Of a stretch of DNA of 64,000 nucleotides, positions 8,451-64,000 are shown piece by piece. The first letter of the stretch is position 1; each line of letters opens with the position of its first letter. Source of the DNA: Thiomonas delicata (GTDB lineage: Bacteria; Pseudomonadota; Gammaproteobacteria; Burkholderiales; Burkholderiaceae_C); assembly GCF_900088825.1 (NCBI RefSeq), contig NZ_LT592170.1, forward strand, positions 1,364,523 to 1,428,522. The letters are read 5' to 3'. The notes under the pieces are model-generated. The model did no database searches and was not told the DNA's origin. It saw only the letters and a program-made list of their open reading frames with translations. The translations under genes were made by a program, and so were the position numbers.

Positions 8451-8624
8451 GAGGACCGCAAAGGTGGCATGGGCGTCATTGTCATGCAGGACGGAGCAGA
8501 CTCGCGCCATGGGGGCGCTGAGTAGAATGAATATTTCTTCGCGATGGCACGCGGGGCGCATCGCATACCCCAGCCAGGGCCGTGGTTGGTTCCAGCCCGA
8601 CGCGTGCCACACCCAGACCGACCC

Positions 8625-18793: not shown

Positions 18794-18795
18794 GC

Positions 18796-47963: not shown

Positions 47964-48295
47964 AGGTCGTCCTATGCGCAGAAATTGCTGTGATGGCTGT
48001 CCCCCCGCAGCGAAACTTTGGGCAGCCCCCTGAACGTCGTCGAGGGAAACTACATCGATATTTTTTGGGCATCTAGCTCACATGACCGACAGATGCCGGG
48101 GATCGTGGGGCCACCGTTTCTGGCCGTATGCGCAGCATAGGCCGATATGGGGCAATTTTTTGTGAGCGAGCGCATCTTTTTTGGCTCAGACAAACCAACT
48201 CCAAGTGTCACGTGGCTGCAATGCACCCATCCCTTCGCGAGGATGGATGCAACGTTTTCACCGCAGGAGCGCGCCGCTCCCGCGCTTCGCTCCGC
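47964..48295. other. Intergenic region upstream of the KaiC-like operon
   Basis: 332 bp without a gene. It should hold the promoter of the minus-strand KaiC-like operon. Several A/T-rich tracts are visible (around 48059-48066 and 48157-48181), but no confident promoter or terminator is called. Confidence 0.45.
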
Positions 48296-48535
48296 TCATT
48301 GCGCCGGAGGCACAACAATGACAGTCCTACCCCCTGTGCCTGCATCCCCTTGACTGCCGGTTTTGCCTTGCATACCCGTGCTGCCAGTATCTCCGGGATT
48401 CCCCTGGTTGCCGGGGGCGCCCTGAGCGCCCGTGTAGCCCGTGTTGCCCGTATTGCCTTGGGGTCCCATCGGGCCTGTGCACGCACCAAGCGCGAACGAT
48501 GCCAACAGAAGTACGGCAGGTATTGAGTAGTTCAT
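48296..48535 (-). CDS. Collagen-like lipoprotein
   Basis: 79 residues. A lipoprotein signal peptide with lipobox LGAC places the lipidated Cys at residue 19. The mature part consists of 16 uninterrupted Gly-X-Y triplets (starting GPMGPQGNTGNTG) and a short hydrophobic tail (VIVVPPAQ). Gly-X-Y runs of this type can form triple helices. It is probably anchored in the outer membrane. Role unknown. A diverged palindromic motif sits 69 bp upstream. Confidence 0.85.
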   Translation of the reverse strand: MNYSIPAVLLLASFALGACTGPMGPQGNTGNTGYTGAQGAPGNQGNPGDTGSTGMQGKTGSQGDAGTGGRTVIVVPPAQ

Positions 48536-48911
48536 GATGATCCCTTGTCAAATCACAGCCAAAATGGCTACGTGATCATGTTGGCAGAACGTGTTCGCGG
48601 CGTCTGTACGCTATCGAACGTTCGTCAGAAAAGCCCTGCCGACACGACGGATCCTTGCGGTTCGGCCGAGGATTTCTAGGGCGTCATGACCCCATCGATG
48701 GCGACAACAGTCGGGACCGCGCGGGGATGTTCACAGCCGTCGTCTGGAGCCGGCCTTGCATGCGCTCTCCTCGCGCACAGCCAGCACGCCGGCCCATCGC
48801 CTGGAATGCGTCACGGACGTGATGCATCGTCTTGCCAGCGCGAACCGTGGGTCGCCAGTTCTGGCGCCACCAACCCCTCGGCCGATAGGGGCGGGGCGCT
48901 ACGACGCATGC
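48536..48911. other. Intergenic region between two small lipoprotein genes
   Basis: 376 bp. Contains the diverged motif copy E (48605-48620) and an overlapping perfect palindrome CGAACGTTCG (48615-48624). No convincing gene. Confidence 0.45.
48605..48620 (-). promoter_or_regulatory. Palindromic motif, copy E (diverged)
   Basis: On the minus strand: CGTTCG-ATAG-CGTACA followed by GAC, 69 bp before the collagen-like lipoprotein start. Two mismatches in the left half and one in the right, but the trailing GAC is kept. Confidence 0.4.
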
Positions 48912-49133
48912 TCACGGCCGCTGCTCGCCCTTCGCCGCGTTTTGCACGCTATGGCCCGCTTTTTCGATTTGCTGGCCGGCTTTAGCCGCACCTTGATCGA
49001 TTCCCTTGCCGACCTTCTGGGCCGGGCCTTCCTGTTTTTGGCAACCATAAAGCGTGGCAATCAAGGCGCTCGCGGCGAAGGCAAGGCCGATGATCGCCAC
49101 GAATCTGGTCATCTGAATCTGGCTATATCGCAT
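48912..49133 (-). CDS. Small lipoprotein-like protein
   Basis: 73 residues. A hydrophobic N-terminal segment ends in ATLYGCQKQEGPA, a probable lipobox with Cys near residue 31. The mature part is a hydrophilic helix with Ala/Lys/Gln repeats (GKGIDQGAAKAGQQIEKAG), similar in style to entericidin-like or LEA-like stress peptides. ATG 49133 has an AGGG sequence upstream; an internal Met at 49112 is possible. Confidence 0.65.
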   Translation of the reverse strand: MRYSQIQMTRFVAIIGLAFAASALIATLYGCQKQEGPAQKVGKGIDQGAAKAGQQIEKAGHSVQNAAKGEQRP

Positions 49134-49244
49134 GCTTGCACCCTAACGTTGCCCATCCCGACGGCGCACGCCGCTGATGGGCGAAATGCGCTGAGGCCTC
49201 CAAACATCGCATCCGCGTGGAGCCGATGTTTGCCGGATCCTTCA

Positions 49245-49460
49245 TCAATTGCCCACTTGGTGGCCAATGATCCCGCCCACGGCCGCGCCACCGACCGTGC
49301 CGACACCGCTCCCGCCTGACAAGACCGCGCCGCCGACCGCGCCGACGCCGGCTCCGATGGCGGTGTTCTGATCCCGTGTCGACATGCCGGCACAGCCTCC
49401 CAACGTCAGCAGCATGATTGCCGCAACGATGACGGGATTGAATCTTTGCTTGGTTTTCAT
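49245..49460 (-). CDS. Glycine-zipper lipoprotein (OsmB/SlyB-like)
   Basis: 71 residues from ATG 49460. Lipobox LGGC with lipidated Cys near residue 22, followed by AIGAGVGAVGGAVLSGGSGVGTV and GGAAVGGIIGHQVGN, a glycine-zipper pair as in OsmB-type outer-membrane stress lipoproteins. Longer in-frame starts upstream lack support. Confidence 0.8.
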   Translation of the reverse strand: MKTKQRFNPVIVAAIMLLTLGGCAGMSTRDQNTAIGAGVGAVGGAVLSGGSGVGTVGGAAVGGIIGHQVGN

Positions 49461-49745
49461 AAAGCGACCTTTTGATTCACGTTGTTGAAGTGCCGGATTA
49501 TCTGCACGGCGCGAAAAATTGAACGACTCAGCGCATGAGATCATGCCCGAACCGGGCGTCACAAGTTCGGCGCTGTGCTTGATCTGCCGCGGAACCGCTG
49601 TGGCTTGCCCTGGATAATCTGAGAATCAGCCTGGCCCAGCGATTCAACGTGCAGAAAATTGCCTAAACATCACCCAGCCGGAAGCCGCTGGAAAATCGTT
49701 ATGACTGGCCCGCATCTTGGTTTTGTTTTTTATTTGGCGGCCGTT

Positions 49746-50057
49746 TCATTTCAGACGCATATCGTCTTTCACCGATTTGACCCCGCCCACACGCCGCGCG
49801 ATTTCAATCGCCTTGAGCTCGTCAGCGCGTGAGCGCACGAAGCCGCTGAGCTGGACGTCGCCCTTGAAGGTTTCGACATTGATTTCTGCGACTTTGAGGT
49901 CCGGATCGGCAAAGATCGCCGCCTTGACTTTGGCCGTGATGGCCGTGTCGTCGAGGTATTGACCCGTGCTTTCCTGTTTCGATGTCGACGCACATCCCAC
50001 GATGGTGAGCGCGGAAGCAGCCAGCACAATGGCGTAGAGGGGTTTAAGTAAGCGCAT
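49746..50057 (-). CDS. BON-domain lipoprotein (OsmY-like)
   Basis: 103 residues. Lipobox IVGC gives Cys at about residue 22; the mature part is one BON domain (DDTAITAKVKAAIFADPDL ... VNVETFKGDVQLSGFV-type strand order, then VGGVKSVKDDMRL). BON proteins bind phospholipid or strengthen the envelope under osmotic stress. Monocistronic by appearance. Confidence 0.88.
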   Translation of the reverse strand: MRLLKPLYAIVLAASALTIVGCASTSKQESTGQYLDDTAITAKVKAAIFADPDLKVAEINVETFKGDVQLSGFVRSRADELKAIEIARRVGGVKSVKDDMRLK

Positions 50058-50149
50058 ATGAATCCTTGGTCAATGACTCGATCCGCCATGGCCAAGCTTG
50101 TTGCAAGGTCACAGAAGCGAAAATATTTTTCGACAGCCTGGAGTTGTGA

Positions 50150-50308
50150 TTACATCCGGCCTGTAAGAAAAAGAATGATCACGATGATGAGTACAAATCC
50201 GAGAATGCCACTCGGAAAATAGCCCCAATTCCTGCTGTGGGGCCAACTCGGTAAAACGCCGATCAGCATTAAAACAAGAATAATCAGCAGCAGCGTGCCT
50301 AAAGACAT
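50150..50308 (-). CDS. Small membrane protein, DUF3309 type
   Basis: 52 residues: membrane helix, a WPHSRNWGYFPSG loop, and a second membrane helix. This loop is the hallmark of DUF3309 proteins, which are small and of unknown function. ATG 50308 is internal to a longer frame whose extra N-terminus is implausible. A perfect palindromic motif is 112 bp upstream. Confidence 0.85.
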   Translation of the reverse strand: MSLGTLLLIILVLMLIGVLPSWPHSRNWGYFPSGILGFVLIIVIILFLTGRM

Positions 50309-50420
50309 GGTCAGCCTCCAAGTGGGCGCCAAATAAATGGCGATTTTTAAGATCGAAGCGCAATACCATGGGGTTCTGCCTTCTATTGGAAACACAATAT
50401 CGCGCTACATACGGCCTGTC

Positions 50421-50436
50421 TGTGCGGTATCGCACA
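50421..50436 (-). promoter_or_regulatory. Palindromic motif, copy C (upstream of DUF3309 gene)
   Basis: Minus strand: TGTGCG-ATAC-CGCACA followed by GAC; perfect half-sites, 112 bp from the DUF3309 start codon. Confidence 0.55.
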
Positions 50437-50691
50437 TCAATCCAGGCATCGAAGTCCTTCCAGGCGGGCCATGAGCCGATGGGGTGTACGCGCGCAGGGT
50501 GAAGGCTTGCGGTGTGTGAGGGTCTGGGTGAGGGTCGCGGTCCGGACCGTGACTTTGAACCTGAACCGCGAAGTTGCTCCGTCTGTTGTGGAGCAAGGTC
50601 GAGGGAAAGGTTTTATCCATCCCTGCGTGGAAGTGGCACGAAGGGCAAGCGATTGCCACCAAATTGCCACCAACCACGCCAGGAAAGCAAA

Positions 50692-50712
50692 AAGCCCCTG
50701 CACCAGGGGCTT
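50692..50712 (-). terminator. Rho-independent terminator of the displaced tRNA-Pro end
   Basis: Nine-base perfect stem (AAGCCCCTG / CAGGGGCTT) with a 3-base loop; on the minus strand it is followed by T residues (A run at 50688-50691 on the plus strand). It lies 28 bp past the CCA end of the tRNA fragment and is presumably the original tRNA terminator. Confidence 0.8.
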
Positions 50713-50740
50713 CTCGGTCCTTGATATACAAGGATGTTTC

Positions 50741-50787
50741 TGGTCGGGGTGAGAGGATTCGAACCTCCGGCCTCTACGTCCCGAACG
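50741..50787 (-). other. 3' fragment of tRNA-Pro(CGG): attachment site / island junction
   Basis: Read on the minus strand, this is the 3' half of a proline tRNA: anticodon loop TTCGGGA with anticodon CGG, the variable region, the T arm with GGTTCGAATCC, acceptor 3' strand and encoded CCA. Similarity stops at about 50787; the 5' half (D arm and 5' acceptor strand) is absent. Integrases that use tRNA genes leave such displaced 3' ends at the far end of the inserted element. Host DNA is therefore to the left and the element to the right. Confidence 0.85.
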
Positions 50788-51014
50788 CGAACTATTCTCA
50801 AATGAGGCCTGGTTGCAAAAACAGGTGTCTAAACAAAATCAATATCTTACGAGCTTGCAAACGGAATATGCAAGCACTTGCGAGAACTTGCATTGCACTG
50901 AAATTGGCACAGATTTGCCACAGAATTTCTAAAGAGGGATTTTGAGCACGTAGTTGAATCGGTGAATAAACAGCCTTGCTAGACGCTGAGTGTTCATCCT
51001 CTTCTGCTCCTGCC

Positions 51015-51440
51015 ATGACTGCTCCAAAGGCTTCGTCCATCTCTCCATTTGTCGCCGTAACAAAAGAAGCTGCTGCAGCCGCACTGAGCTGCTCCCTACG
51101 CTGGATTGACAAGCTCATCGAGGCAGGTGAGTTGCCTGTACCGACAAAAATCGGTCGCCGGGCATACTGGCACCCCGATGAGTTTTATGGGGCGCTCAGC
51201 GCCAAGCTGTTGCGAGAAACAAATGCTCCTCGATTCTCGGTCAACGAGGTCGACCATGCTGATACGCCGAGCCAACCGATTGAGCCGACAGTCGATGGTC
51301 GGCGAGCGAGAGCGGCCACCGCAACGAAGCTATCCGTTTCTGATGCGAAAGGCCCGCCGCATCGACGACGCTCGGCTTCCCCAGTGGACGCGATGCGTGC
51401 AAAGACGGCCGCCGTTCTTCGAGTCGTTGCGACGCCTTGA
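51015..51440 (+). CDS. AlpA/excisionase-like DNA-binding protein
   Basis: 141 residues from ATG 51015 (a longer frame starts at 50976). The N-terminal half has a MerR/AlpA-type winged helix: VTKEAAAAALSCSLRWIDKLIEAG, then VPTKIGRRAYWHPDEFYGAL. Such proteins regulate excision or early genes of integrated elements. The C-terminal half (from ~85) is Arg/Ala-rich and disordered. It is the first gene after the attachment site, as expected for an element-border regulator. Confidence 0.65.
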   Translation: MTAPKASSISPFVAVTKEAAAAALSCSLRWIDKLIEAGELPVPTKIGRRAYWHPDEFYGALSAKLLRETNAPRFSVNEVDHADTPSQPIEPTVDGRRARAATATKLSVSDAKGPPHRRRSASPVDAMRAKTAAVLRVVATP

Positions 51441-51468
51441 GGGCGATGTAAAAAGAGAACATGAAAAA

Positions 51469-51489
51469 GCGGCCCCAAGTCGGGGCCGC
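51469..51489 (-). terminator. Intrinsic terminator for the minus-strand gene at 51557
   Basis: Perfect 8-bp stem GCGGCCCC/GGGGCCGC, 5-base loop; on the minus strand it is followed by TTTTT (A5 at 51464-51468). Confidence 0.8.
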
Positions 51490-51556
51490 CCAAGAATTAC
51501 ATCAGTCCCAACGCTGGGGCCCCATCACCCTCAGCGGTCGATTCCACCGCCGGCTC

Positions 51557-52207
51557 TCAGTGCAACACAGCACCCGCTGGCACCTGCAGCCGCCCAGCTT
51601 GTCTGACGTCAACATCACTGTCGTGCGTCTTGGGCGGAGGCATGCACGCGACCGCCCACCGCTCCCCGACCTCGAAGCCCGGGACGAGGCTCTCCGGCGA
51701 GTCTTCAAGGCGCTTGAACAATGCGACCATCTCCAGCGTGCGCGTCACGAACTCACCCCCAAGCGGCGCTTCATCGACCCGCTTACGAATGGCTCCCCAC
51801 TGCGCGCTTTCCGGGTCTCCGACGGGCGGCCCGGACGTCACGACGATGACTTGGGGCTTGTCGGCAATCGCGACGGCGATGTTCATTGAGCGCCGTGTTT
51901 CAACCGCTTCGAACAACCAGGCCTTTGCGACCGTGTTCAGCATCGGCACGAGGCACACGACTTGCGTCGATGCGGCTTGCAGCGTGACGATTGCACACAG
52001 AAGACCATCACCATTGCCCGCAATGGCAAGGCCCTGACCCGTCGGCACGAGGCTGCTCTCAAACAGCCGCGCCACGCGGTCCGGTAGCTCGATAAACAGG
52101 GCGTGGCCGTCGTAATGGGGCCTTTGCTTCAGCGTCGTCAGTTCGGCGGCGAACTGCGACGGGTCGAGCAGCAGCCCTAAGCCGATGGAATTTCTCTTCG
52201 TAGGCAT
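51557..52207 (-). CDS. Island hypothetical protein
   Basis: 216 residues from ATG 52207, with a good AGGAGA ribosome-binding site. No family recognised. It looks like a compact alpha/beta cytoplasmic protein: repeated hydrophobic strands (GQGLAIAGNGDGLLCAIVTL, TQVVCLVPML, NIAVAIADKPQVIVVTSG). A terminator lies 68 bp beyond its stop. Arranged tandemly with the XRE-like gene at 52303, possibly co-regulated. Confidence 0.7.
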   Translation of the reverse strand: MPTKRNSIGLGLLLDPSQFAAELTTLKQRPHYDGHALFIELPDRVARLFESSLVPTGQGLAIAGNGDGLLCAIVTLQAASTQVVCLVPMLNTVAKAWLFEAVETRRSMNIAVAIADKPQVIVVTSGPPVGDPESAQWGAIRKRVDEAPLGGEFVTRTLEMVALFKRLEDSPESLVPGFEVGERWAVACMPPPKTHDSDVDVRQAGRLQVPAGAVLH

Positions 52208-52266
52208 TTTTTCTCCTGGGTTGGATGGCCTGCTCTCGTGTAGCGACCGGCGCCCAGACAAAAAAA

Positions 52267-52284
52267 GCGGGCCCGCAGGCCCGC
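52267..52284 (-). terminator. Intrinsic terminator for the minus-strand gene at 52303
   Basis: 7-bp stem GCGGGCC/GGCCCGC with a 4-base loop; the minus strand continues into a T7 run (A7 at 52260-52266). Confidence 0.8.
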
Positions 52285-52302
52285 GAACAAAAGAAGGAAA
52301 AA

Positions 52303-52920
52303 TCAAGACGCCATCAAGCTCCGGTCTTTCCCGGCTGCATGCGCTGCCATGGCTTCATGTTCGTCATGCTGGATGGCCGCACGCTGCAACCAGCGCAGGA
52401 TGTCCGGCAGGAGCGGCAACTCGGCCAGTTCCATCGCCCGATTCTTGCCATAGACCATCACCAGGTAATGCCTGTACTCGTCGGTCAGGTCCGCGACGGA
52501 GTCCGGCACGAGCGCGCGCAGTTTCGGGTCCGTCAGCATCCGCGCAAATTCCCGTTCAATCGTGTCGGTCGGTGACTCGATGCGCGTGGCAAAGTCGCCG
52601 ACCCGGATGTCGCCGGCGAGTAGCCGTGCGGTAATCGGAGGAATGGCCAGGTAGCGCGCGGCCTTCGTCATGAAGGCGCGGTCCCTGACCAGCCTGGAGG
52701 CATGACCGCGTTCGCAGCGTTCAAGCTCCTCCAGGCTGATGCCGAGGACGTGGGCCAAATGGTTGGCGTCATGCCGGCGCCGAGCCGCATCGTCGAGCAC
52801 CCAGCCGATGAGCGGGCCGCCTGGGTGCTGGTAAAGCCGCAACACGCGTTCGGCCGGGGTCTCCGGGGCGACGTATGCGGACGCGTCGAGCGGTGGATGG
52901 AGTGCTGCCTTGTGTTCCAT
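52303..52920 (-). CDS. XRE-like helix-turn-helix protein
   Basis: 205 residues. A helix-turn-helix-like segment (HLAHVLGISLEELERCERGH, ~52-72) is followed by AFMTKAARYLAIPPITARLLAGDI, a layout shared with the divergently transcribed 53148 gene, so the two are probably paralogues. The C-terminal half is helical (EFARMLTDPKLRALVPDSVADL). Likely a regulator in the island. A terminator follows the stop. Confidence 0.65.
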   Translation of the reverse strand: MEHKAALHPPLDASAYVAPETPAERVLRLYQHPGGPLIGWVLDDAARRRHDANHLAHVLGISLEELERCERGHASRLVRDRAFMTKAARYLAIPPITARLLAGDIRVGDFATRIESPTDTIEREFARMLTDPKLRALVPDSVADLTDEYRHYLVMVYGKNRAMELAELPLLPDILRWLQRAAIQHDEHEAMAAHAAGKDRSLMAS

Positions 52921-53147
52921 GGTGATGTCCTGTGTGCACGCAAATCCGTGCGCTTCCTATAGCGACCGTGGTTTCGCGGCATCACAGAGCGTATGGATGC
53001 GGAACCATCCACGCGCAACGTCAAGAGACTGGGCCAGCAGTAATCCGCGAGCTGGAGGCACCGACGCTTGGATGCTGGTGACTACACCTGAAAGGCCAGT
53101 CCTCTGGCGGTCGAAATCGACCCTCCAGAACCCCTCAGGAGTCACAT

Positions 53148-53789
53148 GTGAAAGTCAAGCAAGCCAGGAAAACCAAGGACCTCACCACCTGCACAGAAGT
53201 CAATCCCGCCGAGCCCCAAGTAGCAGAACCCGCACCTCATAAGCCTCACGCTCCCTGGAGCGGTGAGGTCAGCGAGACATTCGCCGTCCGGCCCGGTGGC
53301 CTGCTGATTGCTGCTCTCGTGCAGTGCGCCGCAGAGCGAGGCCAGTCCTTTCCGGAGATGTGTCGTGAACTGGGCTACAGCTACCCGTACCTGAACCTGC
53401 TGATGAGCGGGGTCCGACAGGTCAATCAGATTTCTGACGACTTCGCTCGGGCGTGCGCAGCCTATCTGCGCGTGCCTCGCATGAGTATTTTGATGATGGC
53501 TGGACGCATCACGCAAGCCGACCTGATGGAACCGGGGCTGTATGGCCCGCAGACCATTGAACCGGCGTTTCAAGTCCTGTCAAAGGACGCAGCCTGGGGA
53601 CCGCTCGTGACCGGGGAACTCCGCGACGTTTCGATGGTGTCAAAGTACGCGCTGGTCAAGATGTACGAGAAGGCTGAAGGCAAGAAGCTGCTACCCGAAA
53701 TGGACATCGCGGCGCTACAAACCGAAGTGGTCGCGATGCAGGCTCACATCAGCACGATAAGGGCAGAGCTCGCGGCGAAGAAAGAATAG
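53148..53789 (+). CDS. XRE-like helix-turn-helix protein (paralogue)
   Basis: 213 residues, GTG start. A helix-turn-helix-like region (FPEMCRELGYSYPYLNLLMSGVRQ, ~68-92) is followed by ARACAAYLRVPRMSILMMAGRI, aligning with the 52303 protein. The C-terminus ends in a coiled coil (IAALQTEVVAMQAHISTIRAEL). Divergent from 52303 across a 227-bp shared promoter region, a common regulator-switch arrangement. Followed by a strong terminator. Confidence 0.65.
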   Translation: MKVKQARKTKDLTTCTEVNPAEPQVAEPAPHKPHAPWSGEVSETFAVRPGGLLIAALVQCAAERGQSFPEMCRELGYSYPYLNLLMSGVRQVNQISDDFARACAAYLRVPRMSILMMAGRITQADLMEPGLYGPQTIEPAFQVLSKDAAWGPLVTGELRDVSMVSKYALVKMYEKAEGKKLLPEMDIAALQTEVVAMQAHISTIRAELAAKKE

Positions 53790-53820
53790 AAACTGTCGCG
53801 CGGTCATTGAGCCCATTCAC

Positions 53821-53844
53821 GCCCCCGTACTGCGGGGGCTTTTT
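53821..53844 (+). terminator. Intrinsic terminator after the XRE-like gene
   Basis: 7-bp stem GCCCCCG/CGGGGGC, 5-base loop, then TTTTT; 31 bp after the stop codon at 53789. Confidence 0.9.
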
Positions 53845-53918
53845 GCATCCAATCCAGCGGCGGTGGTGCAGGTCGGCGGGGTGTACCGAGAAGCGCAGCG
53901 ATGCGTGGCGGCCTTGCG

Positions 53919-54041
53919 TTACGGCCGGATGTGCGGCACGCTGCGCAGAGACCACGCATGGCGCAGCCAGGTTTTGCGGAGGTCGCGTGCCAGCACGCAG
54001 AGGGTCAGCGCGAGGGCCAGGATGGCAAGCCAATTCAACAT
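53919..54041 (-). CDS. Small membrane peptide
   Basis: 40 residues: a membrane helix (WLAILALALTLCVLA) followed by an Arg/Trp-rich amphipathic tail (RKTWLRHAWSLR). AGGA lies 8 bases before the ATG. No family recognised; it may be a chance frame, but the composition (helix plus positive tail) is that of real small membrane proteins. Confidence 0.35.
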   Translation of the reverse strand: MLNWLAILALALTLCVLARDLRKTWLRHAWSLRSVPHIRP

Positions 54042-54144
54042 GTAGCAATGTCCTGGTGATGGTTGTCGGAACGGGTGGGGCTCTCGATTTGTCAGGGCAT
54101 TATCAAATCAAACGTCCAGCGTGAACAGCCGCTGCCCCCATGGT

Positions 54145-54810
54145 CTAGCGTCCACGGCGCTTGACAAAGCCCTTTGCCTGTAGCGCGCGCAGCAGACTTG
54201 CTTCCCCTTCGCCCTGCGTAGCTTCCCAGAAATCGGCCCATAGCCGGTAGGTCTTTGTCGAGCGCACCTGTTCGTCCGGTGCCTTGCCATAGCGACCTGC
54301 GGCAACGGCTCGGGCGGCTTCTTGAACGGCCGCCAATGCCGACCGCAAGGGGTCATCGGTCCCTTTGGCATTGGTTGGCATCTGTATTGCCGTGCTGTCG
54401 GTCTTCACGCCAGAGAGCGCATCCTGCAAAGCCCCTAACCTGGTCGCAGACACTGGCATTCCGGCACTGCGCGCAGCGGCTTCACGCACCAGCCGCTGCG
54501 CTTCCTCCAGCCGCCACCCAGGGTCGCGCTCCCTCACCTCATCCTCCAGCCGTTGCCGTTCCGCAGCTTCCCGCGCGGGCCCGCAAATCTTGGCATCAAT
54601 GAAGGCGAGCTCGTCGTCTGACATCTGCTCGCGTAGTGCGGCGGGGATGGATTCGGTGGTCACCGGCAGGCTGCCTACATAGACCTGCCGCGAGTAGCCG
54701 TGCGTGTTGCCGGCAGAGCCCTTGGGCACCCAGACGGAGCGGTAGAGAAGGGCGCGGGCTCGGCGGTGTTTGATGTGCATGGCGACGGCTCTGGTGACAA
54801 GTGATGCCAT
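54145..54810 (-). CDS. Island hypothetical protein
   Basis: 221 residues (an internal Met at 54780 gives 211). The N-terminal block LLYRSVWVPKGSAGNTHGYSRQVYVGSLP is well ordered and looks conserved; the rest is strongly helical and charged (AREAAERQRLEDEVRERD). No catalytic motif recognised. Possible DNA-associated protein of the element. Confidence 0.6.
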   Translation of the reverse strand: MASLVTRAVAMHIKHRRARALLYRSVWVPKGSAGNTHGYSRQVYVGSLPVTTESIPAALREQMSDDELAFIDAKICGPAREAAERQRLEDEVRERDPGWRLEEAQRLVREAAARSAGMPVSATRLGALQDALSGVKTDSTAIQMPTNAKGTDDPLRSALAAVQEAARAVAAGRYGKAPDEQVRSTKTYRLWADFWEATQGEGEASLLRALQAKGFVKRRGR

Positions 54811-54991
54811 GTGTAGCCATCACCGTTCCACACGCCACCGTCGCAGGGTGACCCGGCGTATGGACCCAGCGGCACGAAGCCTGCCAACACGTCGGCACCG
54901 GGCCAATACCTCGTGGCATCGGCGTGGGTGCACCACGGAGATAAACGCGGTGCCTACATGAAGTCCCAACTTCTCTGGACAGGACTTCACC

Positions 54992-55441
54992 ATGCCCGAG
55001 CTTCACACCGCCGCAGTCCCCAGCCGTCTCGTCACCCGTAACGAATTTGGGGCCCTTTGCCCCGAACGGACCCTATCCGCAGAGGAACGAACCTCCGTCG
55101 CCTCCTTGCTGGGCCGCGCCATCCAGGCCGACCTACTCCCCGAGTCGTACTGCACGCGCTCAAAAAAGGAAATCCAAAGCCGTAACCATCACATCTATGA
55201 CGTCCTGCTCGACGATGGACGGGTGACCGCTGTGGTTATCCTCACCCTTGATTTTTGGAAGCACCTGACCAAACTGCGCACCCGGATAGGCAAGGAGTAC
55301 AACCTGCTAAAAGTCGGCGCGGATGGAGCGGTCGAGGTCATCGACATTGATGTGCGTACGTGCGCCAAGCGCGCGAAAAATGCCACGGCATGGGGCGCTT
55401 TACTCAAGGGGCAAGACAAAGACACGTGGCCCCTAAAATAA
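54992..55441 (+). CDS. Island hypothetical protein
   Basis: 149 residues, ATG start. Mixed alpha/beta (NHHIYDVLLDDGRVTAVVILTLDFWKHL, YNLLKVGADGAVEVIDIDV). No family recognised. It ends 60 bp before the HATPase gene. Confidence 0.6.
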   Translation: MPELHTAAVPSRLVTRNEFGALCPERTLSAEERTSVASLLGRAIQADLLPESYCTRSKKEIQSRNHHIYDVLLDDGRVTAVVILTLDFWKHLTKLRTRIGKEYNLLKVGADGAVEVIDIDVRTCAKRAKNATAWGALLKGQDKDTWPLK

Positions 55442-55500
55442 GACCTGTTGCCATATCACGCTAGTGACGCGTGTGCAAAAAGAGAAGGCTGACGCGACGC

Positions 55501-56424
55501 ATGATTTGGAAGATTCTTTTTCCCGTGGAGAGGGCCGTCCTCCTACCTCTTATCTTCAACGCAGAGACGATGCTTCCGTTTTTGGCCGAGGTCGTCGACG
55601 AGCAGCGTGACGCAAAGTGTTCAAAGGTCATTTTCGACTTCAGCAGGTTGACCTTCGTCGAACCGGTTGGTGTCGTTGTCTTATCAAATGTTATTGAGTA
55701 TTTCAAAACGCTGGGTTGCAAGGTCAGCTTCAAGAACCATGCGACGGAGACTGCAGGAACGAAGTTCCTCGATGACTCCCTTTTCTTCGAGCGGTATCTT
55801 GGCAAGAGGATATTTGGTGGCTCCGTTCGCTCTACCACCATGCCGCTCAGGCTCATACATAGCGAACAGGCTCAGGCGTATTTGCTGAGCGACGTTATGC
55901 CGTGGGTTGGTCAGCGTGTGGGAATGAGGCCAGAGTCGCTCGATGGCGTTCGCGTTTCGCTCGAGGAGGTTCTTCACAACGTGCAAGACCACTCTGGGGT
56001 ACGCATCGGGTGCACTTTCGCGCAGTACTTTCCGAAAAAAAATCAAATCCAGATAGCCATTTCCGACTTCGGTGCCGGAATTCCGCGCGTAGTACGAACG
56101 AGAGAGCCGAGCGCTAGTGACTCTGCGGCACTTCGCCTGGCATGCCAAGAGGGCTTCACAACGAAGAGCAATGTGCAGAACCGAGGGGCGGGTTTGCCCA
56201 CTCTCATCAAGTACGTCACTCAGAACAATGGAGGCAATGTGCTCATTGTTTCCGCCCGTGGGAGCCTGTCCGCGGTTCCGAACCCTGCCGGCCCTCCCCC
56301 ATATAAAATTACGGCACGAGCCACAGGGGGGGGCTACCCGGGAACGTTGGTTCGAGTGACGCTTAGAACAGATACGCTAGAGCGGGTCGCATCGGACGCA
56401 GAAGTGGAGCCGTTCTCATGGTAG
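55501..56424 (+). CDS. Fused STAS-like / HATPase protein
   Basis: 307 residues from ATG 55501 (GTG 55471 is an alternative). The N-terminal part (CSKVIFDFSRLTFVEPVGVVVLSNVIEYF) resembles a STAS domain. The C-terminal GHKL ATPase has an N-box (VSLEEVLHNVQDHSG), G1 (SDFGAGIP) and G2 (GAGLPTLIKYV). There is no His-containing dimerisation domain, so it is anti-sigma- or sensor-like, not a classical kinase. It overlaps the next STAS-like gene by 7 bp. Confidence 0.8.
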   Translation: MIWKILFPVERAVLLPLIFNAETMLPFLAEVVDEQRDAKCSKVIFDFSRLTFVEPVGVVVLSNVIEYFKTLGCKVSFKNHATETAGTKFLDDSLFFERYLGKRIFGGSVRSTTMPLRLIHSEQAQAYLLSDVMPWVGQRVGMRPESLDGVRVSLEEVLHNVQDHSGVRIGCTFAQYFPKKNQIQIAISDFGAGIPRVVRTREPSASDSAALRLACQEGFTTKSNVQNRGAGLPTLIKYVTQNNGGNVLIVSARGSLSAVPNPAGPPPYKITARATGGGYPGTLVRVTLRTDTLERVASDAEVEPFSW

Positions 56425-56720
56425 TGAAGGTTATGGACCATGTGAGGACCGCATCCTCCTACGAGGATGGAGATGTCATCTTTCGTCTCATCCTTCCACC
56501 GGTAATGGAAGGACAGCGCGTTGAAGTCGATTTCACGGGCATTACGTCAGTGCCATCTGCGTTTGTAAATGCTGCATTTGTCCGCTTGCTGGAACAGGTT
56601 TCTCTGGAGCGGGCCCGGGAAGTGCTGACTTTCGTCCAGTCAACCCGGCAAATAAATGAGCTTATTCGAAGTCGCTTCGAATTTGTGGAGCAAGAAAAGA
56701 AGCGGTTGGCCGGGGTATGA
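56418..56720 (+). CDS. STAS-like DUF4325 protein
   Basis: 100 residues fitting the DUF4325 STAS-like family: DGDVIFRLILPPVMEGQRVEVDFTGITSVPSAFVNAAFVRLLEQ, the pattern of an anti-sigma-antagonist fold. The Ser after the SVP turn sits where STAS proteins are phosphorylated. DUF4325 proteins are regularly encoded beside GHKL ATPases, supporting partner switching between the two. Confidence 0.8.
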   Translation: MVVKVMDHVRTASSYEDGDVIFRLILPPVMEGQRVEVDFTGITSVPSAFVNAAFVRLLEQVSLERAREVLTFVQSTRQINELIRSRFEFVEQEKKRLAGV

Positions 56721-57016
56721 GTACCCCAGGCATGTCCACGGGCAAGAAGGTCGACTACCTGGTTGCTCTTCGTGTTGGGTGCGGATTCTCTAGCTGCGGT
56801 GGCACACCCATTGTAAGTACGGCGAGCCTGAAAGATTCATCGACGGCGCATGGTCAGCGAAGGTCCGCGCGCAACCTATTGGGTGAGGGCAGGCGCCGCC
56901 GCGCTAGGACGCTGTGTGGCCGGCTCCAATGGGCCGACGTCAATGGCGCGTTGAACCGCAGCAATCCACAGCGCATCGCTTGCCTCTTGGCCAAGTTGTT
57001 GCGAGTGGAATGTTGA
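56717..57016 (+). CDS. Short Cys-containing protein coupled to the STAS gene
   Basis: 99 residues. Its ATG overlaps the STAS-like gene's stop (ATGA), suggesting a third partner. The start region VDYLVALRVGCGFSSCGGTPIV has a CxxxxC pair like the N-terminus of some HNH endonucleases. The second half (from ~50) is Arg-rich and looks like translated non-coding DNA, so the gene is probably truncated or frameshifted. Function call not supportable. Confidence 0.4.
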   Translation: MSTPGMSTGKKVDYLVALRVGCGFSSCGGTPIVSTASLKDSSTAHGQRRSARNLLGEGRRRRARTLCGRLQWADVNGALNRSNPQRIACLLAKLLRVEC

Positions 57017-57037
57017 CAGCTATGGAACAGGACCGGC

Positions 57038-58192
57038 TCAAATGAAGCTAGCTCCCTGCGCGTCGAGTAAGGCGCTGTAATTTCCAAGATGATGCTGCCA
57101 CAAGGAATCCGCGTTTTCTTCATCTGGTGCAGGCACTGCCTCAAGTGAGTACAGTTTTCCGCACTGCACATAGTTCAGGTACGGGGTAGCATTGTTCACG
57201 CTTGGGCCTTGAGCCAGGTAGCTGGTGTCGATGTTCTGACCGAGGTAACCTGCTGCAGCCTCTGCCCCATGCTTTACGACATCGGCGAGGCCGTCTCGCA
57301 GAGTGGCTACTGAGGACTCCACGCACGCGGCTACCGTTTTCAGTATGGCGTTCTTCCGTGCGAGCCAACTGTCAATCGGGTTGTTGATGACCTCATCGGG
57401 AAGGTCCAGTGCCAATGGAGTTTGCGGGACCCAGTCCCGCGAATTGTTGACGCAAATGGCCAAGCCGATGTTCCCGGCAGCTTGCGCAAAGTCGTGCCCA
57501 TACTGCCAATTGCCTGGTTTTGGTTGCGCAAACACATAGGACTTGTAGTTGAACTCTTTAGTCTCCAGTGCGTGTGCTAGCGCGTCAGTTCCTCCGCTGC
57601 TATGCAGCAACAGCGAGTGCAACAGCGTCGCAATGGCCGCTCCTTGGCTATGACCGCAGATTAGTATGTTGCAACCCCGAGGGAGTTGCTGAAGCTTCTT
57701 CAGAATGCCAATGTCTTTGTGATACAGCAGAACCAGCGCACTCCATAAAAACCCCAAATGGACGCCCGATTTTTCGGAATTGCTTGGTTTCACCGTCGCG
57801 TACGACAGGTTGCCCAACGGCGGACCGGCCGCAGTTAGGGGAAAGGATGCATTGCACTGCACGGTCGTTGCCAAGGCATCGTCCAGCATGCTGGAAACAG
57901 TCCCAACCGTGCCCCGGATGACGATTGCGTAGGAACCGGATGCGCCGGTGCTCGCACTATTGCGCCAACCGGCCCATGCATTGTTGAAGGGGCCAACACC
58001 ATCTTGCGTTCCACCGAATCGCGATGGTTCGGGCGATGCAGGGTTCTGCGTCAGGCTCGCGAAATCGAGCGTCCACGACGTAGGAGGGGGCGGGAGAGGG
58101 GCGGGAGCAGGCAGTCCGTTCCCGTTGAGCTGCATGCACAGATTCAATGCATCGCGCGCTTCTTGAAACTGATAGCCGGAAGAAAATGCCAT
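57038..58192 (-). CDS. Class 3 lipase-like hydrolase
   Basis: 384 residues from ATG 58192. The nucleophile elbow reads CGHSQGAAIATLLH (GxSxG), with plausible Asp (NSRDWVPQ) and His (LWQHHLG) of a class-3 lipase triad. No signal peptide. A proline-rich segment (APAPLPPPP) lies near residue 30. Substrate unknown. In a mobile element it could be a secreted phospholipase effector or an abortive-infection enzyme; neither is demonstrated. Confidence 0.8.
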   Translation of the reverse strand: MAFSSGYQFQEARDALNLCMQLNGNGLPAPAPLPPPPTSWTLDFASLTQNPASPEPSRFGGTQDGVGPFNNAWAGWRNSASTGASGSYAIVIRGTVGTVSSMLDDALATTVQCNASFPLTAAGPPLGNLSYATVKPSNSEKSGVHLGFLWSALVLLYHKDIGILKKLQQLPRGCNILICGHSQGAAIATLLHSLLLHSSGGTDALAHALETKEFNYKSYVFAQPKPGNWQYGHDFAQAAGNIGLAICVNNSRDWVPQTPLALDLPDEVINNPIDSWLARKNAILKTVAACVESSVATLRDGLADVVKHGAEAAAGYLGQNIDTSYLAQGPSVNNATPYLNYVQCGKLYSLEAVPAPDEENADSLWQHHLGNYSALLDAQGASFI

Positions 58193-58839
58193 AGCGTGAC
58201 CCCTTGTCCAGTGCGCATCGGCGCCCGCATTAACCGAACAATGTCGCGGAAATGGCTGCAACATGGTCCTTGACTAGTGGGCTTTTACAGCCACAAGTTA
58301 TAGGAAAAGAGTACATCTCTCGGCAAGGATTAACAAACCTAAGAGTGTTTCGGATTGTGTGGGGAGATGTGAACCGATGGAGCGCGCATCCAGCGGAATC
58401 CAAATCTCGGTGAGGATGGTGTCCAGAGCATAAATTTTTGGTCAACCTATGCTTTTCTGCTATCCGCTGGGCCAGGAATTGCTTCACAAATCGGGGGACA
58501 AAAATCAGCTAACGGCACATACTGCGCCGAGGAGTCTTCGTATTGCGCGACAGATTGCAGTTGCTGAAGCGCAGATGAATCGTGTCTGTCGACGGTAGTC
58601 AATGCCAATTGTTTGGCTTGGTCTGAAGTCTGAAGTCTGAAGTCATAGCGCGTGCCTTACCGGCCACAACGACCAACGAGGGGGTAAGTGCGACGAGCGG
58701 AAATGAACGGCAAATTTTCATGGGCTCCCAATAGAATTCCCGGCATGAACTGACCACCCACCGCGGGCGCCACGCCCGCCGACCTCAACTTGAAGCGCAC
58801 GACACAGGGTTCGTGCGTCCGCAAAAAGTTGAGGTCAAC
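58193..58839. other. Gene-free stretch with a 7-bp tandem repeat
   Basis: About 650 bp, AT-richer than its surroundings. TCTGAAG is repeated three times in tandem at 58622-58642. No gene recognised. Confidence 0.5.
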
Positions 58840-59052
58840 ATGCAAAACCAGTACGAAGCCGCGCGCGAACTCCTCGCCGCCGGCGCCTTCATCGAGCAGG
58901 TCTCGGACGCTCCGCTCGCCTACCGCATCCGACTCGGTAGTGATTCGGCCCCGTTGCCGGCCGGGCTCTTCCAGCAGCTGCTTGCCCACAAGCAGATACG
59001 CCAGAGCTGCAGGGTGAGTGGGAGGATGCGGTACGTAATCGTCGAGGTGTGA
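58840..59052 (+). CDS. Small hypothetical protein
   Basis: 70 residues from ATG 58840, with GAGG upstream. Helix-turn-strand composition (YEAARELLAAGAFIEQVSDAPLAYRIRLG), compact and soluble. No family recognised. Confidence 0.55.
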   Translation: MQNQYEAARELLAAGAFIEQVSDAPLAYRIRLGSDSAPLPAGLFQQLLAHKQIRQSCRVSGRMRYVIVEV

Positions 59053-59077
59053 GGGGAGGCGCTGAGGCCGAGAACGC

Positions 59078-59454
59078 TCACTCCATTGGCCGGTACACCT
59101 CAACCAGCGCTAGGTGGCGCTCCAGGTGCTCGCCCATGTACCGGCCAAATTTCCCCTCATCCTCAAGCCGTAGCTGACTGGCATTGAGGACGCGCCCACT
59201 CTTCTTTGTAGTTCAAGCTGCGTCACCTCTTGGCGAACACGCGGATGGATTGGGCGGAAGCCCTCGCGTGACGGGTCAAAGCTCAGCTGGTAGCCGTCGA
59301 AAAGCTTGTCGACGTGGGCAACGAGAAGCAATCCGTTCATTGGGTCGATAGCAATTGGCACTTGTAGCAGAAACGGCTGCGGCGCAATGGCTAAAGTGGG
59401 ACCTGCGCGCAGAAAAGGCGCCGTCTGACTGGCAACTTGAGTACGAGTCCGCTT
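59078..59454 (-). pseudogene. Frameshifted, truncated HNH-nuclease gene
   Basis: On the minus strand, one frame carries PIAIDPMNGLLLVAHVDKLFDGYQLSFD, the C-terminal half of an HNH_2-type nuclease (NGLLL ... DKLFD), through to VRQEVTQLELQRR. Near 59190-59215 the coding moves to another frame that continues LNASQLRLEDEGKFGRYMGE and HLERHLALVEVYRPME then stop at 59078, also family-like. The N-terminal Cys/HI metal-binding part is missing, and the frame runs back into the end of the helicase gene. So it is 5'-truncated and frameshifted. Confidence 0.7.
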
Positions 59455-61654
59455 AGCCCGGCGAAAGACCCCTTGCCCAAGTCAGCGCCTCATCGATGTC
59501 AAGCCGGAGGCTTGCATACGTGTTGCGTAGCAGACTATCCGGAAGCGACCAATCCCACTTTTCACGCTGGAGATTCTTTGCGTCAGCCAGCAGATACTCA
59601 AGGGAAGGAGTGGCGCTCGCGCCAATTTCTAACAGGACGGCGGCAATCTCGTGCGCTGATTCGTGGTGTTTGGGGACCTCGATACCTGGACCGCCTGCTG
59701 TCGAGGCGACTCCCCGAGACTGCAGGAGGCAAGCTAGGGCTTCGTTTGCCGCGTCTCCGAGCCAAGTTAAAAGGACCAGTTCGGAGCCCTGGTCCACCAA
59801 GTAGGACTCAGCGAGGCCGCGTCTGGCATAGGTAGCTCTGGACTCGTCCAGGAAGCGCGCAGCTGCTGCGTCAAGATAGGCTGGAACCTCAGTCGATTCG
59901 AGCAATTGCCGCATTCGCTGGCGTACCCGAGTGTGCGTACGGCCGACCCCACCGGAAAAGAGCGGAGGTGTGCCGCCTCCTGCGCGTGTGACGAAAATGG
60001 ATTTCTGTTCTTCGTCAATTTCCTCAACGCGCCAGGTTCTTCCAGCGAACAAGATGCGCTGCCCAATTGTCAGAGCTTGGGATACAGGCAAGGTGCCGAG
60101 CGTCTTGCTGCCGGCGATGATGCGAAATTCCTCATCCGTCGCAAATGCAGCATAGAACGAGTAGTGGTTGACCATCTTCTCGCCAATACGCCCATGCAGT
60201 AGGAGGCCAGACGGGTCCTGCATGAGCAGCTCCTTCTTCCCGAGGTGCCTAACCAGCTCCACTAATTCACCCTTCGAGACACCGATGAAGGGCGATGCCG
60301 GGCCACACAAAAGGTGGTAAAGCTCTCCGATGGTCGCGCCTCCGTTCTGCGCAATGAAGGAGAGTATTTGCTGGACCAGTGTCGAAAGATGTGCGCCATT
60401 AGCTACCGGCGGCTCGAACCAACCTTCCCGCAGAAGCGAAATCATCGCTGTCATCTGAACGGTGTCGAGACGGAGTTCATCAGCGAGGGAAAGTCTGCCG
60501 CCCTGAGCGTTCTCTACGCAGTATCCCCTGAGTACAGCTGGCTCGCCTTTGCGTCGCCCGGAGCGGCCTAACCGTTGCCTGAGGCTCGCAACGGACGGAG
60601 GAGGTCCAATCTGGGCCACACTCTTCACCGCGCCTATGTCGATGCCTAACTCCAATGTGTTGGTGCAGATGGCCGTCGCCGGGCGCTCTCTTTGTTTGAG
60701 CGCTGCCTCTGTTTCCGAGCGAATTTCCTTCGAGAGACTTCCGTGGTGCGGCCAGAACTCGTTCGGTACCTGCTGTTCCTGGCATAGCCCATTCAGCAAG
60801 TGCGTGTAGCGCTCAACCTCGCGACGTGAGTTGGGAAAAATGAGGTTATTCGACCCACGAAGGCTCTTGAAGAGATGCGCTGCAATCTGGGCAGGCGTCA
60901 CTGGCTCAGGCGCTTCATCGTCGTCCCGCTGACGCACAACCAGCGGTTCTTCGTAGCCCTTCACCAGAACCTTCAGCTCTGCGGAGAATTCTTTGGACTC
61001 GACCAATGCAACCCCTGAGCCCGCCCCTGGGCGCAGGAATTCTGCAGCTAAGCTCATGTCCCCGAGCGTTGCCGACAGGCCAATTCGAGGAACCGACCGG
61101 CCAATAGCACGCTCCACGCGATGCATCAGCGACTGAAGTTGCTTACCACGCTCTGAGCCAATGAATGCGTGGAGCTCGTCGACCACAAAAAAAGTGAGAC
61201 TTCCGAAGACCGCGGCGATGGAAGTCCCGCGGTTGCACAGCAAAGCCTCCAACGATTCCGGCGTGATGAGCAAGACACCATGCCGCTTGGCCAGGAACCG
61301 CGTCTTGGTGGCTGCGGAGACATCACCGTGCCAGGGCCACACGGGGATTTCCAGCTGTTCACACAATTGGCTGAGGCGCCCAAACTGGTCGTTGATGAGC
61401 GCCTTGAGCGGGCTGATATAGGCGATGAGCCCGGGAGGTGAAGATTGAAGCAAGTGCGTCAGTGCTGGCAGGAAGGCTGCCTCCGTCTTGCCACTTGCGG
61501 TGGCCGCCGCCACGATGACGTCCCGGTCTGCGCGAACGATGAGCGGGATTGCCTTCTCCTGGGCGTATCGCAGTGACTCCCAGCCCTCTGCCCAGATGAA
61601 GCGTTGGATGCGCTCATCCAACAAGTAAAACGCGCTGGACTCTTGCTGAGTCAT
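59453..61654 (-). CDS. sngC: Lhr-like DEAD/DEAH helicase, Shango SngC
   Basis: Superfamily 2 helicase of 733 residues. Motif I ATASGKTEAAF (~residue 50), motif II VVDELHAF (DELH), motif III GLSATLG, and motif VI QRLGRSGRRKG; an Lhr-like C-terminal region follows. Read with the two upstream genes (BrxD-like ATPase, TerB-C protein) it forms the trio described as the Shango anti-phage system. The assignment rests on gene content and motifs, from memory of that description. A 109-bp gap separates it from sngB. Confidence 0.88.
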   Translation of the reverse strand: MTQQESSAFYLLDERIQRFIWAEGWESLRYAQEKAIPLIVRADRDVIVAAATASGKTEAAFLPALTHLLQSSPPGLIAYISPLKALINDQFGRLSQLCEQLEIPVWPWHGDVSAATKTRFLAKRHGVLLITPESLEALLCNRGTSIAAVFGSLTFFVVDELHAFIGSERGKQLQSLMHRVERAIGRSVPRIGLSATLGDMSLAAEFLRPGAGSGVALVESKEFSAELKVLVKGYEEPLVVRQRDDDEAPEPVTPAQIAAHLFKSLRGSNNLIFPNSRREVERYTHLLNGLCQEQQVPNEFWPHHGSLSKEIRSETEAALKQRERPATAICTNTLELGIDIGAVKSVAQIGPPPSVASLRQRLGRSGRRKGEPAVLRGYCVENAQGGRLSLADELRLDTVQMTAMISLLREGWFEPPVANGAHLSTLVQQILSFIAQNGGATIGELYHLLCGPASPFIGVSKGELVELVRHLGKKELLMQDPSGLLLHGRIGEKMVNHYSFYAAFATDEEFRIIAGSKTLGTLPVSQALTIGQRILFAGRTWRVEEIDEEQKSIFVTRAGGGTPPLFSGGVGRTHTRVRQRMRQLLESTEVPAYLDAAAARFLDESRATYARRGLAESYLVDQGSELVLLTWLGDAANEALACLLQSRGVASTAGGPGIEVPKHHESAHEIAAVLLEIGASATPSLEYLLADAKNLQREKWDWSLPDSLLRNTYASLRLDIDEALTWARGLSPG

Positions 61655-61763
61655 GGTTGTCTGCGCACGTGCGGCAAGGCCAAACTGACGGAGGGTGGCA
61701 GGAGCCTGTGGAGAGACTCCGCGACTTGTCTTCCGGGTCTCATGGATAGCAAGAGGCTGGGCG

Positions 61764-63068
61764 TCACATTTTGAACGATGCGAACTCGTCGTCGTTGACT
61801 TCGACCGTTAGGTCTGCAGCTCCGCCTTTGTCCTCCACCACGTCGAGGCCACCGAGCAGTTCCTGCCAAGAGGTTCCCGGGTTCTGCTCAAGCACGGCCA
61901 AGAAGTCGATGAAGGCCTTGATGGTGGTTCGCGGCGTTCGAAAGTAGGCGTTGCCTATGCGCTTCGAACAGTGCTCCATGAAGCTGGAGATGCCCTGGTC
62001 CGGGATAAGGTGCTTCTCCACGTCGCCGAAAGCGTAGACGCTGCGAATTTTCTGGAGAAGCACGTAGAACTCTTCGGGGGCGATACTGGACAACCGGATG
62101 ACCGGGCCGCTGAGGTCCACCAGGCCGTTGGTGGCAAAGCTGTTCTGGGCCAATCGACTCTGCAAAGCGGGGTAGCTGAACAGCCCGCGACGTGTGTCGA
62201 GCATGAACTCGGGTGTTCCGCCCAGCACGAAGCCGAGGCCCACAGCTGTGCCTTGTAGCGAGTCGTTCAAGATGCGCAGCACCTGCTCGTAATTCGCGTT
62301 GCGAGCTTGCACGTTCGCCAGTTTGTACAGATTGACCATCTCGTCGAGCCCGACCAGCAAGCCGGAAAAGCCTGCGAGCCGAACAAACCGGGCCATGAGC
62401 TTGAGCTGGTCGTATACAGAAGCGTCGTCAACGTAGCTACGTACTCCAAGGGCTTCGCGGGCATCGGTCTTAGTGCTGAACTCGCCACGCAACCAGCGCA
62501 CCGCATCCGATTTGAGCTGCTCATTGCCCTCGTCATGGCCTCTGCAGTAGGCTGCGATGACGTCCGCGAAGTCGTAGCCGTTGACCAGCTCAGTCAGTTG
62601 GTCAAGCTTCTGGCGCAGTACAGGTTCCGTGGGCTGCCCGGACGTTTTGGCCTCGGCCTTCGCGGTGGAGATGAATTTCTCCACGATGCTACTAAGTGCT
62701 CCGCCGTCGGGCTTGGTGCGCGTAGACAAGTTGCGCATCAACTCGGCATATAGCGACCGAACTTGACCACCGCCCGCATGCAACCTGCGGTCCGGGTTCA
62801 GGTCGGCCGTTGCAACGACGAGTTTTTTCTCCATGGCAACCGAGCGAACCAGGTTCAAGAAAAACGTCTTTCCTGCGCCGTATTCGCCGATGACAAGGCG
62901 GAATGCGGAGCCCCCATCGGCCACGCGCTCAATGTCCGCAACGAGGGTTTCAATCTCTCGCGCACGACCTACCTGAATAAGACGCTGCCCCACGCTGGGC
63001 ACCACTCCGGCACGCAGCGATTGGAGGACGGCGTCTCGGTCCTTGGGGCGAATGATGGCGGTATTCAT
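61764..63068 (-). CDS. sngB: BrxD-like P-loop ATPase, Shango SngB
   Basis: 434 residues of the DUF2791 / BREX ATP-binding family. Walker A GEYGAGKTFFLNL lies at ~residues 61-73, and the Walker-B-like GLLVGLDEMVNL near 234-245. The arginine-rich segment RTPRTTIKAFIDFL near the C-terminus is typical. BrxD also accompanies BrxHI helicases in type 2 BREX, but no pglZ, brxC or methylase is seen here. Its start overlaps the TerB gene's stop (ATGA). Confidence 0.87.
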   Translation of the reverse strand: MNTAIIRPKDRDAVLQSLRAGVVPSVGQRLIQVGRAREIETLVADIERVADGGSAFRLVIGEYGAGKTFFLNLVRSVAMEKKLVVATADLNPDRRLHAGGGQVRSLYAELMRNLSTRTKPDGGALSSIVEKFISTAKAEAKTSGQPTEPVLRQKLDQLTELVNGYDFADVIAAYCRGHDEGNEQLKSDAVRWLRGEFSTKTDAREALGVRSYVDDASVYDQLKLMARFVRLAGFSGLLVGLDEMVNLYKLANVQARNANYEQVLRILNDSLQGTAVGLGFVLGGTPEFMLDTRRGLFSYPALQSRLAQNSFATNGLVDLSGPVIRLSSIAPEEFYVLLQKIRSVYAFGDVEKHLIPDQGISSFMEHCSKRIGNAYFRTPRTTIKAFIDFLAVLEQNPGTSWQELLGGLDVVEDKGGAADLTVEVNDDEFASFKM

Positions 63069-64000
63069 GCTCGTATTTTTTCGAGGATTTCCGGGTTCAC
63101 GATGACCGGGTCATCCCCTTCGGAGAACGGGATATCGTGAGCGTCAAATGCTGCGTCGTTGATGTGCTCAAGCGCGCCATCAAGCATGAGGTCGAGGTCG
63201 CCAGCGATGTCCAGAAGGTCTTCGCGACTCCACTCGCGTTGACTCACCAGCATGCGTGCGAAGGAGGAGTGCGCCTCATCCAGTCCAAGTAGCGTCGTGG
63301 ATGTCGGCGCAGCGTCCGTGTCTTCCGGCTGCTCCCCCACCGGAGTCGTTGAGGCAGCGGCGGGTCCCTGTGCTTGCTCACTCTCCACAAAGATGTCTGC
63401 CAAGAGCGCCGACACACGCTCCGTGTCCCTCTGGAGGGCGGCGATGCGCTCCGGGTCAAGCCGGAGTCCCGCATCATCTTTGGCAGGAGCAGGCGTGATT
63501 GTGAGGCGCTTGCCCGCTGCGGCTCCATGCACATCGGAGAACACCTTTTGGGGGTCGACACCCAGGGTCTTGTAAACCTTTTCCAAGGTCTTCAACTCCG
63601 CCGGGGAGACTTCGCCATCCGGCCGTACCAGAGTCGCCATGAACGCCGCAATGGCCTCCTTGGCTGGAAGTTCAACGGCTTCGAACTTTTTCTTAAGTGC
63701 CGTCAGCGATGTAGGTGCTTGATGCAGCAGTCGTAGCAGAGCCAGCAATCGCGATGCCTGCCCAGGTGTTAGGTGTTGCCAGGAGCGGACTGCCTCGCGC
63801 AAGAATCCCGCCTTGGCGTTGCTTGTCTCGTTGTCCGAGCCCACCACGGTCGAGGCCAGTTGGAGGGTGAGAACTGCCACATGGAAGGAGCTGCCTCCGC
63901 GTATCGCTCCCGACTCAGCAGGCAGTTTGAATACAACCACAGGGTCTTCTGGCTTTGGGAGTTTGGCTTCCCCCAATACGTCAGGCTCAAAGCCGATACC
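63065..64000 (-). CDS. sngA: TerB-C domain protein, Shango SngA (5' end off the window)
   Basis: C-terminal ~311 residues of a TerB-family protein; the frame is open to the window edge. The TerB-like helical segment (AIAAFMATLVRPDGEVSPAELKTLEKVYKTLGV, ~150-180 of the visible part) is followed by a TerB-C region (FARMLVSQREWSREDLLDIAGDLDLMLDGALEHINDAAFD) near the end. TerB proteins are implicated in stress and phage response at membranes. Position first in the operon matches SngA. Confidence 0.82.
   Translation of the reverse strand, partial: GIGFEPDVLGEAKLPKPEDPVVVFKLPAESGAIRGGSSFHVAVLTLQLASTVVGSDNETSNAKAGFLREAVRSWQHLTPGQASRLLALLRLLHQAPTSLTALKKKFEAVELPAKEAIAAFMATLVRPDGEVSPAELKTLEKVYKTLGVDPQKVFSDVHGAAAGKRLTITPAPAKDDAGLRLDPERIAALQRDTERVSALLADIFVESEQAQGPAAASTTPVGEQPEDTDAAPTSTTLLGLDEAHSSFARMLVSQREWSREDLLDIAGDLDLMLDGALEHINDAAFDAHDIPFSEGDDPVIVNPEILEKIRA

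Follow-up and report, generated by a model that had tools for sequence, protein, structure and literature searches.

A 47-bp copy of the 3' half of tRNA-Pro(CGG), found in a 64-kb window of the Thiomonas delicata genome, is almost certainly one attachment copy of a 38.4-kb integrative island (hereafter island B), which entered a site probably used before by an older, decayed element. In Thiomonas, tRNA-Pro(CGG) is a recurrent landing site with stacked elements. The window, i.e., the whole stretch of DNA analyzed, corresponds to C4:1364523-1428522 of the 3.84-Mb genome; the features around the remnant are as follows.

50683-50716, minus strand: hairpin terminator 3' of the remnant, assigned to the older element's right end (fold; tRNA-flank comparison across congeners)
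50741-50787, minus strand: displaced tRNA-Pro(CGG) 3' end serving as the left attachment copy of island B (exact 47-bp direct repeat, one copy in the window)
50788-64000: island B, left 13.2 kb of 38.4 kb, continuing beyond the window to C4:1453705 (repeats at both ends; no syntenic match in congener loci)
50904-50925: 11-bp direct repeat pair (TTGGCACAGAT / TTGCCACAGAA) situated ~117 bp from the core; candidate arm sites of island B (motif scan, repeat measurement and class statistics)

The tRNA remnant and island B

The remnant comprises the CCA end, T arm, variable loop, 3' side of the anticodon stem and the loop TTCGGGA (anticodon CGG), and is truncated, since the tRNA match stops at 50787. 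It occurs once within the window, dinucleotide shuffles of which gave no match at up to 3 mismatches, and no intact tRNA was detected in the 64 kb using ARAGORN. A whole-genome search returned only one other long match, the intact tRNA-Pro(CGG) at C4:1453706-1453782, as the remaining two tRNA-Pro genes (GGG and TGG) match the remnant over just 32 bp. The partner repeat lies inside this intact gene at C4:1453706-1453752 (genome-search match C4:1453702-1453752), and the two copies are identical over 47 bp and 38.4 kb apart. The original prediction, made from the window alone, had described a 47-bp tRNA-Pro(CGG) 3' half ending at 50787, with a mobile element to its right and, at the far end of that element, an intact tRNA-Pro(CGG) bearing the same repeat next to an integrase. 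Each of these was borne out, with the 38.4-kb island lying between the two copies, and no synteny of the 50.8-64 kb segment with core DNA was observed in congener loci.

A tyrosine integrase gene (PF00589; L007:5406-6986), oriented like the tRNA, is located immediately within the right border, and a polyprenyl synthetase gene (ispB) followed by a proB-like gene lies to the right of island B. When the flanks are joined at the core, a complete tRNA-Pro(CGG) results, whereas the element-end junction gives no complete tRNA. Homologues of the integrase (41-46% identity) were identified in one congener (G004) and 7 further genomes from other genera in the family, and an intact tRNA-Pro(CGG) adjoins the homologue in 8/8 of these other genomes (ARAGORN). 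The GC content of island B is 0.608, compared to 0.667 and 0.642 in flanking core stretches. A repeat pair is also present on the tRNA side, where it is less regular than the left pair, its score being matched by 8% of random 200-bp local windows. Comparison at the genus level within Thiomonas (including one congener identified as Thiomonas sp. FB-6 by contig sequence identity) further revealed empty sites of the form expected for relatives lacking the island, as pilB is followed after 0.2 to 0.55 kb by tRNA-Pro(CGG) and then ispB in three congeners (G027, G003 and G020). Island B therefore has the hallmarks of a tRNA-integrated island, i.e., a tRNA 3' direct repeat at its borders, a tRNA-matched integrase at one end and empty sites in relatives.

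In the integration event we propose, the tyrosine integrase at the far right would have recombined a 45-47 bp core that the tRNA-Pro(CGG) 3' half has in common with a circular form of the element. With the copy brought in by the element, a full tRNA would have been re-formed on the right side, immediately followed downstream by the integrase gene, and the former 3' end of the tRNA would have been displaced to the left border. A circular intermediate and use of the 11-bp repeats as arm sites are presumed in this scheme, under which island B may still be mobile today.

Island B carries the following genes within the window.

51015-51440, plus strand: small HTH protein that may be an excisionase or a regulator (HTH_17 match, weak and below cut-off; weak PHROG excisionase match)
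57038-58264, minus strand: class 3 lipase-domain protein (PF01764, E 9.2e-13)
59453-61654, minus strand: SngC, DEAD-box helicase of Shango (PADLOC SngC, E 7.7e-272)
61764-63068, minus strand: SngB, BrxC/BrxD-like ATPase of Shango (PADLOC SngB, E 1.5e-178; PF10923)
63065-64000, minus strand: SngA, TerB-domain protein of Shango, running past the window to C4:1430112 (PADLOC SngA, E 1.1e-100; TerB_N, TerB_C)

SngA, SngB and SngC together identify a Shango system (PADLOC, E 1e-100 to 1e-272). Beyond it, the scanned ORFs encode an SSB-like protein, DUF5906, NTP_transf_8 and a bacterial PH domain, followed further along by a dehydrogenase-like ORF (opposite strand), HsdM, HsdS, an Mrr-type endonuclease and HsdR, and lastly by a WYL protein, DUF2779 and the integrase. 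Judged by these genes, island B is a predicted defence island with Shango and type I restriction-modification genes. No relaxase or conjugation genes, as would mark an ICE, were recognized by Pfam among the island B ORFs above very small size. Likewise, no phage structural or packaging genes, as would mark a prophage, were recognized in island B, where phage-type matches consist of the integrase plus weak excisionase and terminase-small-subunit matches on one HTH protein.

Block A and the probable older element left of the remnant

Besides the terminator, the DNA to the left of the remnant includes the following features.

18047-19791, minus strand: pilB (frameshifted), ancestral left neighbor of tRNA-Pro(CGG) (tblastn with congener PilB, two frames; empty-site synteny)
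20383-50333: block A, ~30 kb of accessory DNA that separates pilB from the scar, with GH94/glycosyltransferase, G6PD, KaiC and GGDEF-kinase genes (colinearity with G002; Pfam)
50334-50740: ~0.4-kb scar in which the integrase region is decayed, probable right end of an older tRNA-Pro element (G002 colinearity ends at 50333; integrase fragment at the matching place in G026)
50653-50674: 11-bp direct repeat pair (TTGCCACCAAA, twice), candidate integrase arm sites of the older element (motif scan; 9/9 match at spacing 11)

In its full form, the original prediction took the remnant and terminator for the original end of the host tRNA, with core DNA directly to the left and a single island to the right. 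The orientation of the remnant fits this reading and all of its right-hand predictions held, but the left side makes it very improbable. The empty-site neighbor pilB sits 31 kb further left than such a reading would place it, and its position at 18047-19791 implies that ~69.4 kb has come between pilB and the tRNA. The DNA in between (20.4-50.3 kb) is accessory rather than host core: block A is absent from the tRNA-Pro site of G027, G003 and G020, and in the congener G002 a 29.9-kb stretch (C2) colinear with 20383-50333 at ~75-88% identity occupies a different locus. Block A was thus rejected as the ancestral flank, a place held by pilB in the empty-site genomes.

The terminator itself had been foreseen in part correctly. 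A strong hairpin is indeed present on the side away from the island (-20.1 kcal/mol, z -4.45, with a T-rich tail, on the tRNA-coding strand); it was missed by a simple consensus terminator scan, so its role as a terminator rests on the fold and tail. However, its assignment as the tRNA's original terminator was rejected, as the adjacent 0.4 kb has the marks of an element end and pilB flanks the empty sites. It most likely belongs to the older element, because this segment contains its own 11-bp repeat pair and the near relative G026 has an integrase fragment at the corresponding position. From these features of the DNA, the 0.4-kb scar with its terminator and repeats probably represents the right end of an earlier element inserted at this tRNA. 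Under the favored explanation, island B would have entered a site already used by this element, which has since decayed and whose right end borders the left side of the remnant; the geometry and the decay suggest that the older element was inserted before island B.

Block A may have been cargo of the older element or may have arrived by rearrangement. A second tRNA remnant, which would represent the left attachment copy of the older element, was not found where block A begins on the left (19.9-20.5 kb), short words included, and no tRNA or related integrase was present in the flanks read beside the G002 copy. Within block A, a single 2912-aa ORF (20428-29166) encodes glycosyl hydrolase 94 domains together with a putative glucoamylase domain and is colinear in G002 and G004 at 88% identity. 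In G026 (contig C326, L047), window positions 48145-50518 are present at 99%. The same contig has a fused piece of island B, with 58744-58992 joined to 88528-89101 (extended coordinates); after it comes a further tRNA-Pro remnant, this one with a +50-class integrase (see below).

The reading frame of pilB is split in two at 18757-18802 by a one-base difference to the congener gene, which may reflect a broken gene or a sequencing error. On contigs with both genes, pilB lies inverted and ~27-40 kb away on the ispB side in eight congeners (G001, G002, G009, G014, G017, G022, G023 and G024), indicating that the pilB-tRNA-Pro junction has also been a rearrangement breakpoint in part of the genus.

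The tRNA-Pro(CGG) site in Burkholderiales and Thiomonas

GTDB genomes were scanned for the tRNA 3' half in its displaced rather than its intact form, which yielded 92 stretches (L053-L144). An 11-bp-spaced direct repeat pair (8 or more of 9 letters matching, no more than 200 bp away on the element side) was present at 66 of the 90 distinct displaced ends with sufficient flank, compared to 4.9% of random same-locus windows; because an intact tRNA whose anticodon stem is unusual can also fit the scan pattern, the 90 may include a few that are not displaced. The distance of the pair from the core is bimodal, with 18 pairs near +50 and 37 between +104 and +122. When the ends were divided into these two position bins, which were chosen after inspection of the data, an integrase gene was found just inside 16/16 testable near-class ends versus 1/29 far-class ends. 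Island B belongs to the far class, with its repeats at ~+117 and the integrase at the opposite end. One 45-bp target serves two architectures in Burkholderiales that differ in integrase position and in repeat-pair distance (~50 or 117 bp). A search of viral contigs for the displaced-remnant pattern gave no match. Together, the integrase position and a repeat pair at ~+50 or +117 provide a simple rule for finding the borders of islands at tRNA-Pro(CGG).

Partial tRNA copies can arise without integrases, yet the possibility that the remnant is such a chance duplication, or an assembly artefact, with no integration involved is hardly credible, given that it ends where ~90 other displaced Burkholderiales copies end, that the integrase at the far end has relatives at the same tRNA and that both 47-bp copies are deep inside a 2.0-Mb contig.

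Tandem units bordered by 45-bp remnants, with a terminator at the end, occupy the tRNA-Pro site in five congeners (G012, G013, G014, G015 and G016), the named ones among which are metagenome-assembled genomes, with the G012 and G013 assemblies having one sample prefix (ZJ4).

L033:7339-9345; L034:6340-8050; L035 (reverse complement) 7107-9602; L036:1829-6619; L044:7038-8447: integrase-less tandem toxin-antitoxin cassettes between tRNA-Pro(CGG) remnants

The units are typically 0.8-1 kb in size, or up to 1.6-3.1 kb in cases of apparent fusion of two or three modules, and are without an integrase gene; the remnant has been lost at some inner borders. Pfam searches identified RelE with an HTH antitoxin, TumE with an HVO_A0114-type protein, DUF4160 with DUF2442, CcdB, HicB (its HicA-like partner without a match) and a polymerase-beta nucleotidyltransferase (its HEPN-like partner without a match). 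In G005, AbiEi/AbiEii follow the tRNA-Pro remnant. Several units have a repeat pair at ~+50 like the near class, but with a spacing of 12 rather than 11 and often 7 of 9 letters; no pair was found in unit 2 of G015 or in either G016 unit. The RelE cassette is 94-97% identical between species compared to 83-84% for ispB, which points to transfer between species. A search with one cassette-type border pattern gave 2 matches, both in Thiomonas, among 401 genomes of the family that include few Thiomonas.

We regard it as an evenly balanced possibility that, in part of Thiomonas, tRNA-Pro(CGG) works like an integron platform, in which ~1-kb integrase-less units, typically with one toxin-antitoxin pair and a terminator, enter sequentially at the intact tRNA using a borrowed integrase. 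The proposed lender is a near-class integrase, and several units have a similar repeat pair at +50. These arrays suggest that minimal toxin-antitoxin units could move with little beyond the tRNA core, a repeat pair and a terminator.

Comparison with known systems

The tandem toxin-antitoxin cassettes are the newest part of this work, and island B itself belongs to a known type. It resembles other tRNA-integrated islands with tyrosine integrases in its tRNA 3' core repeat, in the integrase next to the intact tRNA and in the displaced 3' end at the far border. The empty sites in relatives and the traces of earlier use of this tRNA by another element are likewise shared with tRNA islands that grow by accretion, and the difference is one of detail, i.e., the two-class layout of repeat pair and integrase at tRNA-Pro(CGG). 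As for its cargo, island B has SngA/B/C and HsdM/S/R, and nothing unusual was noticed in the genes alone relative to Shango and type I restriction-modification systems.

Integron cassette arrays and the dif modules of Acinetobacter consist of small units, many with toxin-antitoxin pairs, that are bounded by recombination sites and have no integrase of their own. The congener cassettes are alike in these respects. They differ in having 45-bp tRNA-Pro 3' ends with a repeat pair and terminator as borders and, likely, in a recombinase that is a tRNA-targeting integrase. No published account of toxin-antitoxin cassettes at tRNA genes was recognized among the listed titles and opening parts of abstracts, which is not proof of absence.

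Within the genus, the portions of two reports on the ThGEI islands of Thiomonas drawn on here describe integrases, direct repeats and a composite structure (PMC2829063, PMC4589449), features shared with the present case. The neighbors named in those portions are a ferredoxin gene and tRNA-Thr (PMC2829063, PMC4589449), compared to tRNA-Pro(CGG) for island B. Overall, what began as a guess from raw sequence has become a mapped landing site, with a 45-bp tRNA core that is used by at least two classes of integrase in Burkholderiales.
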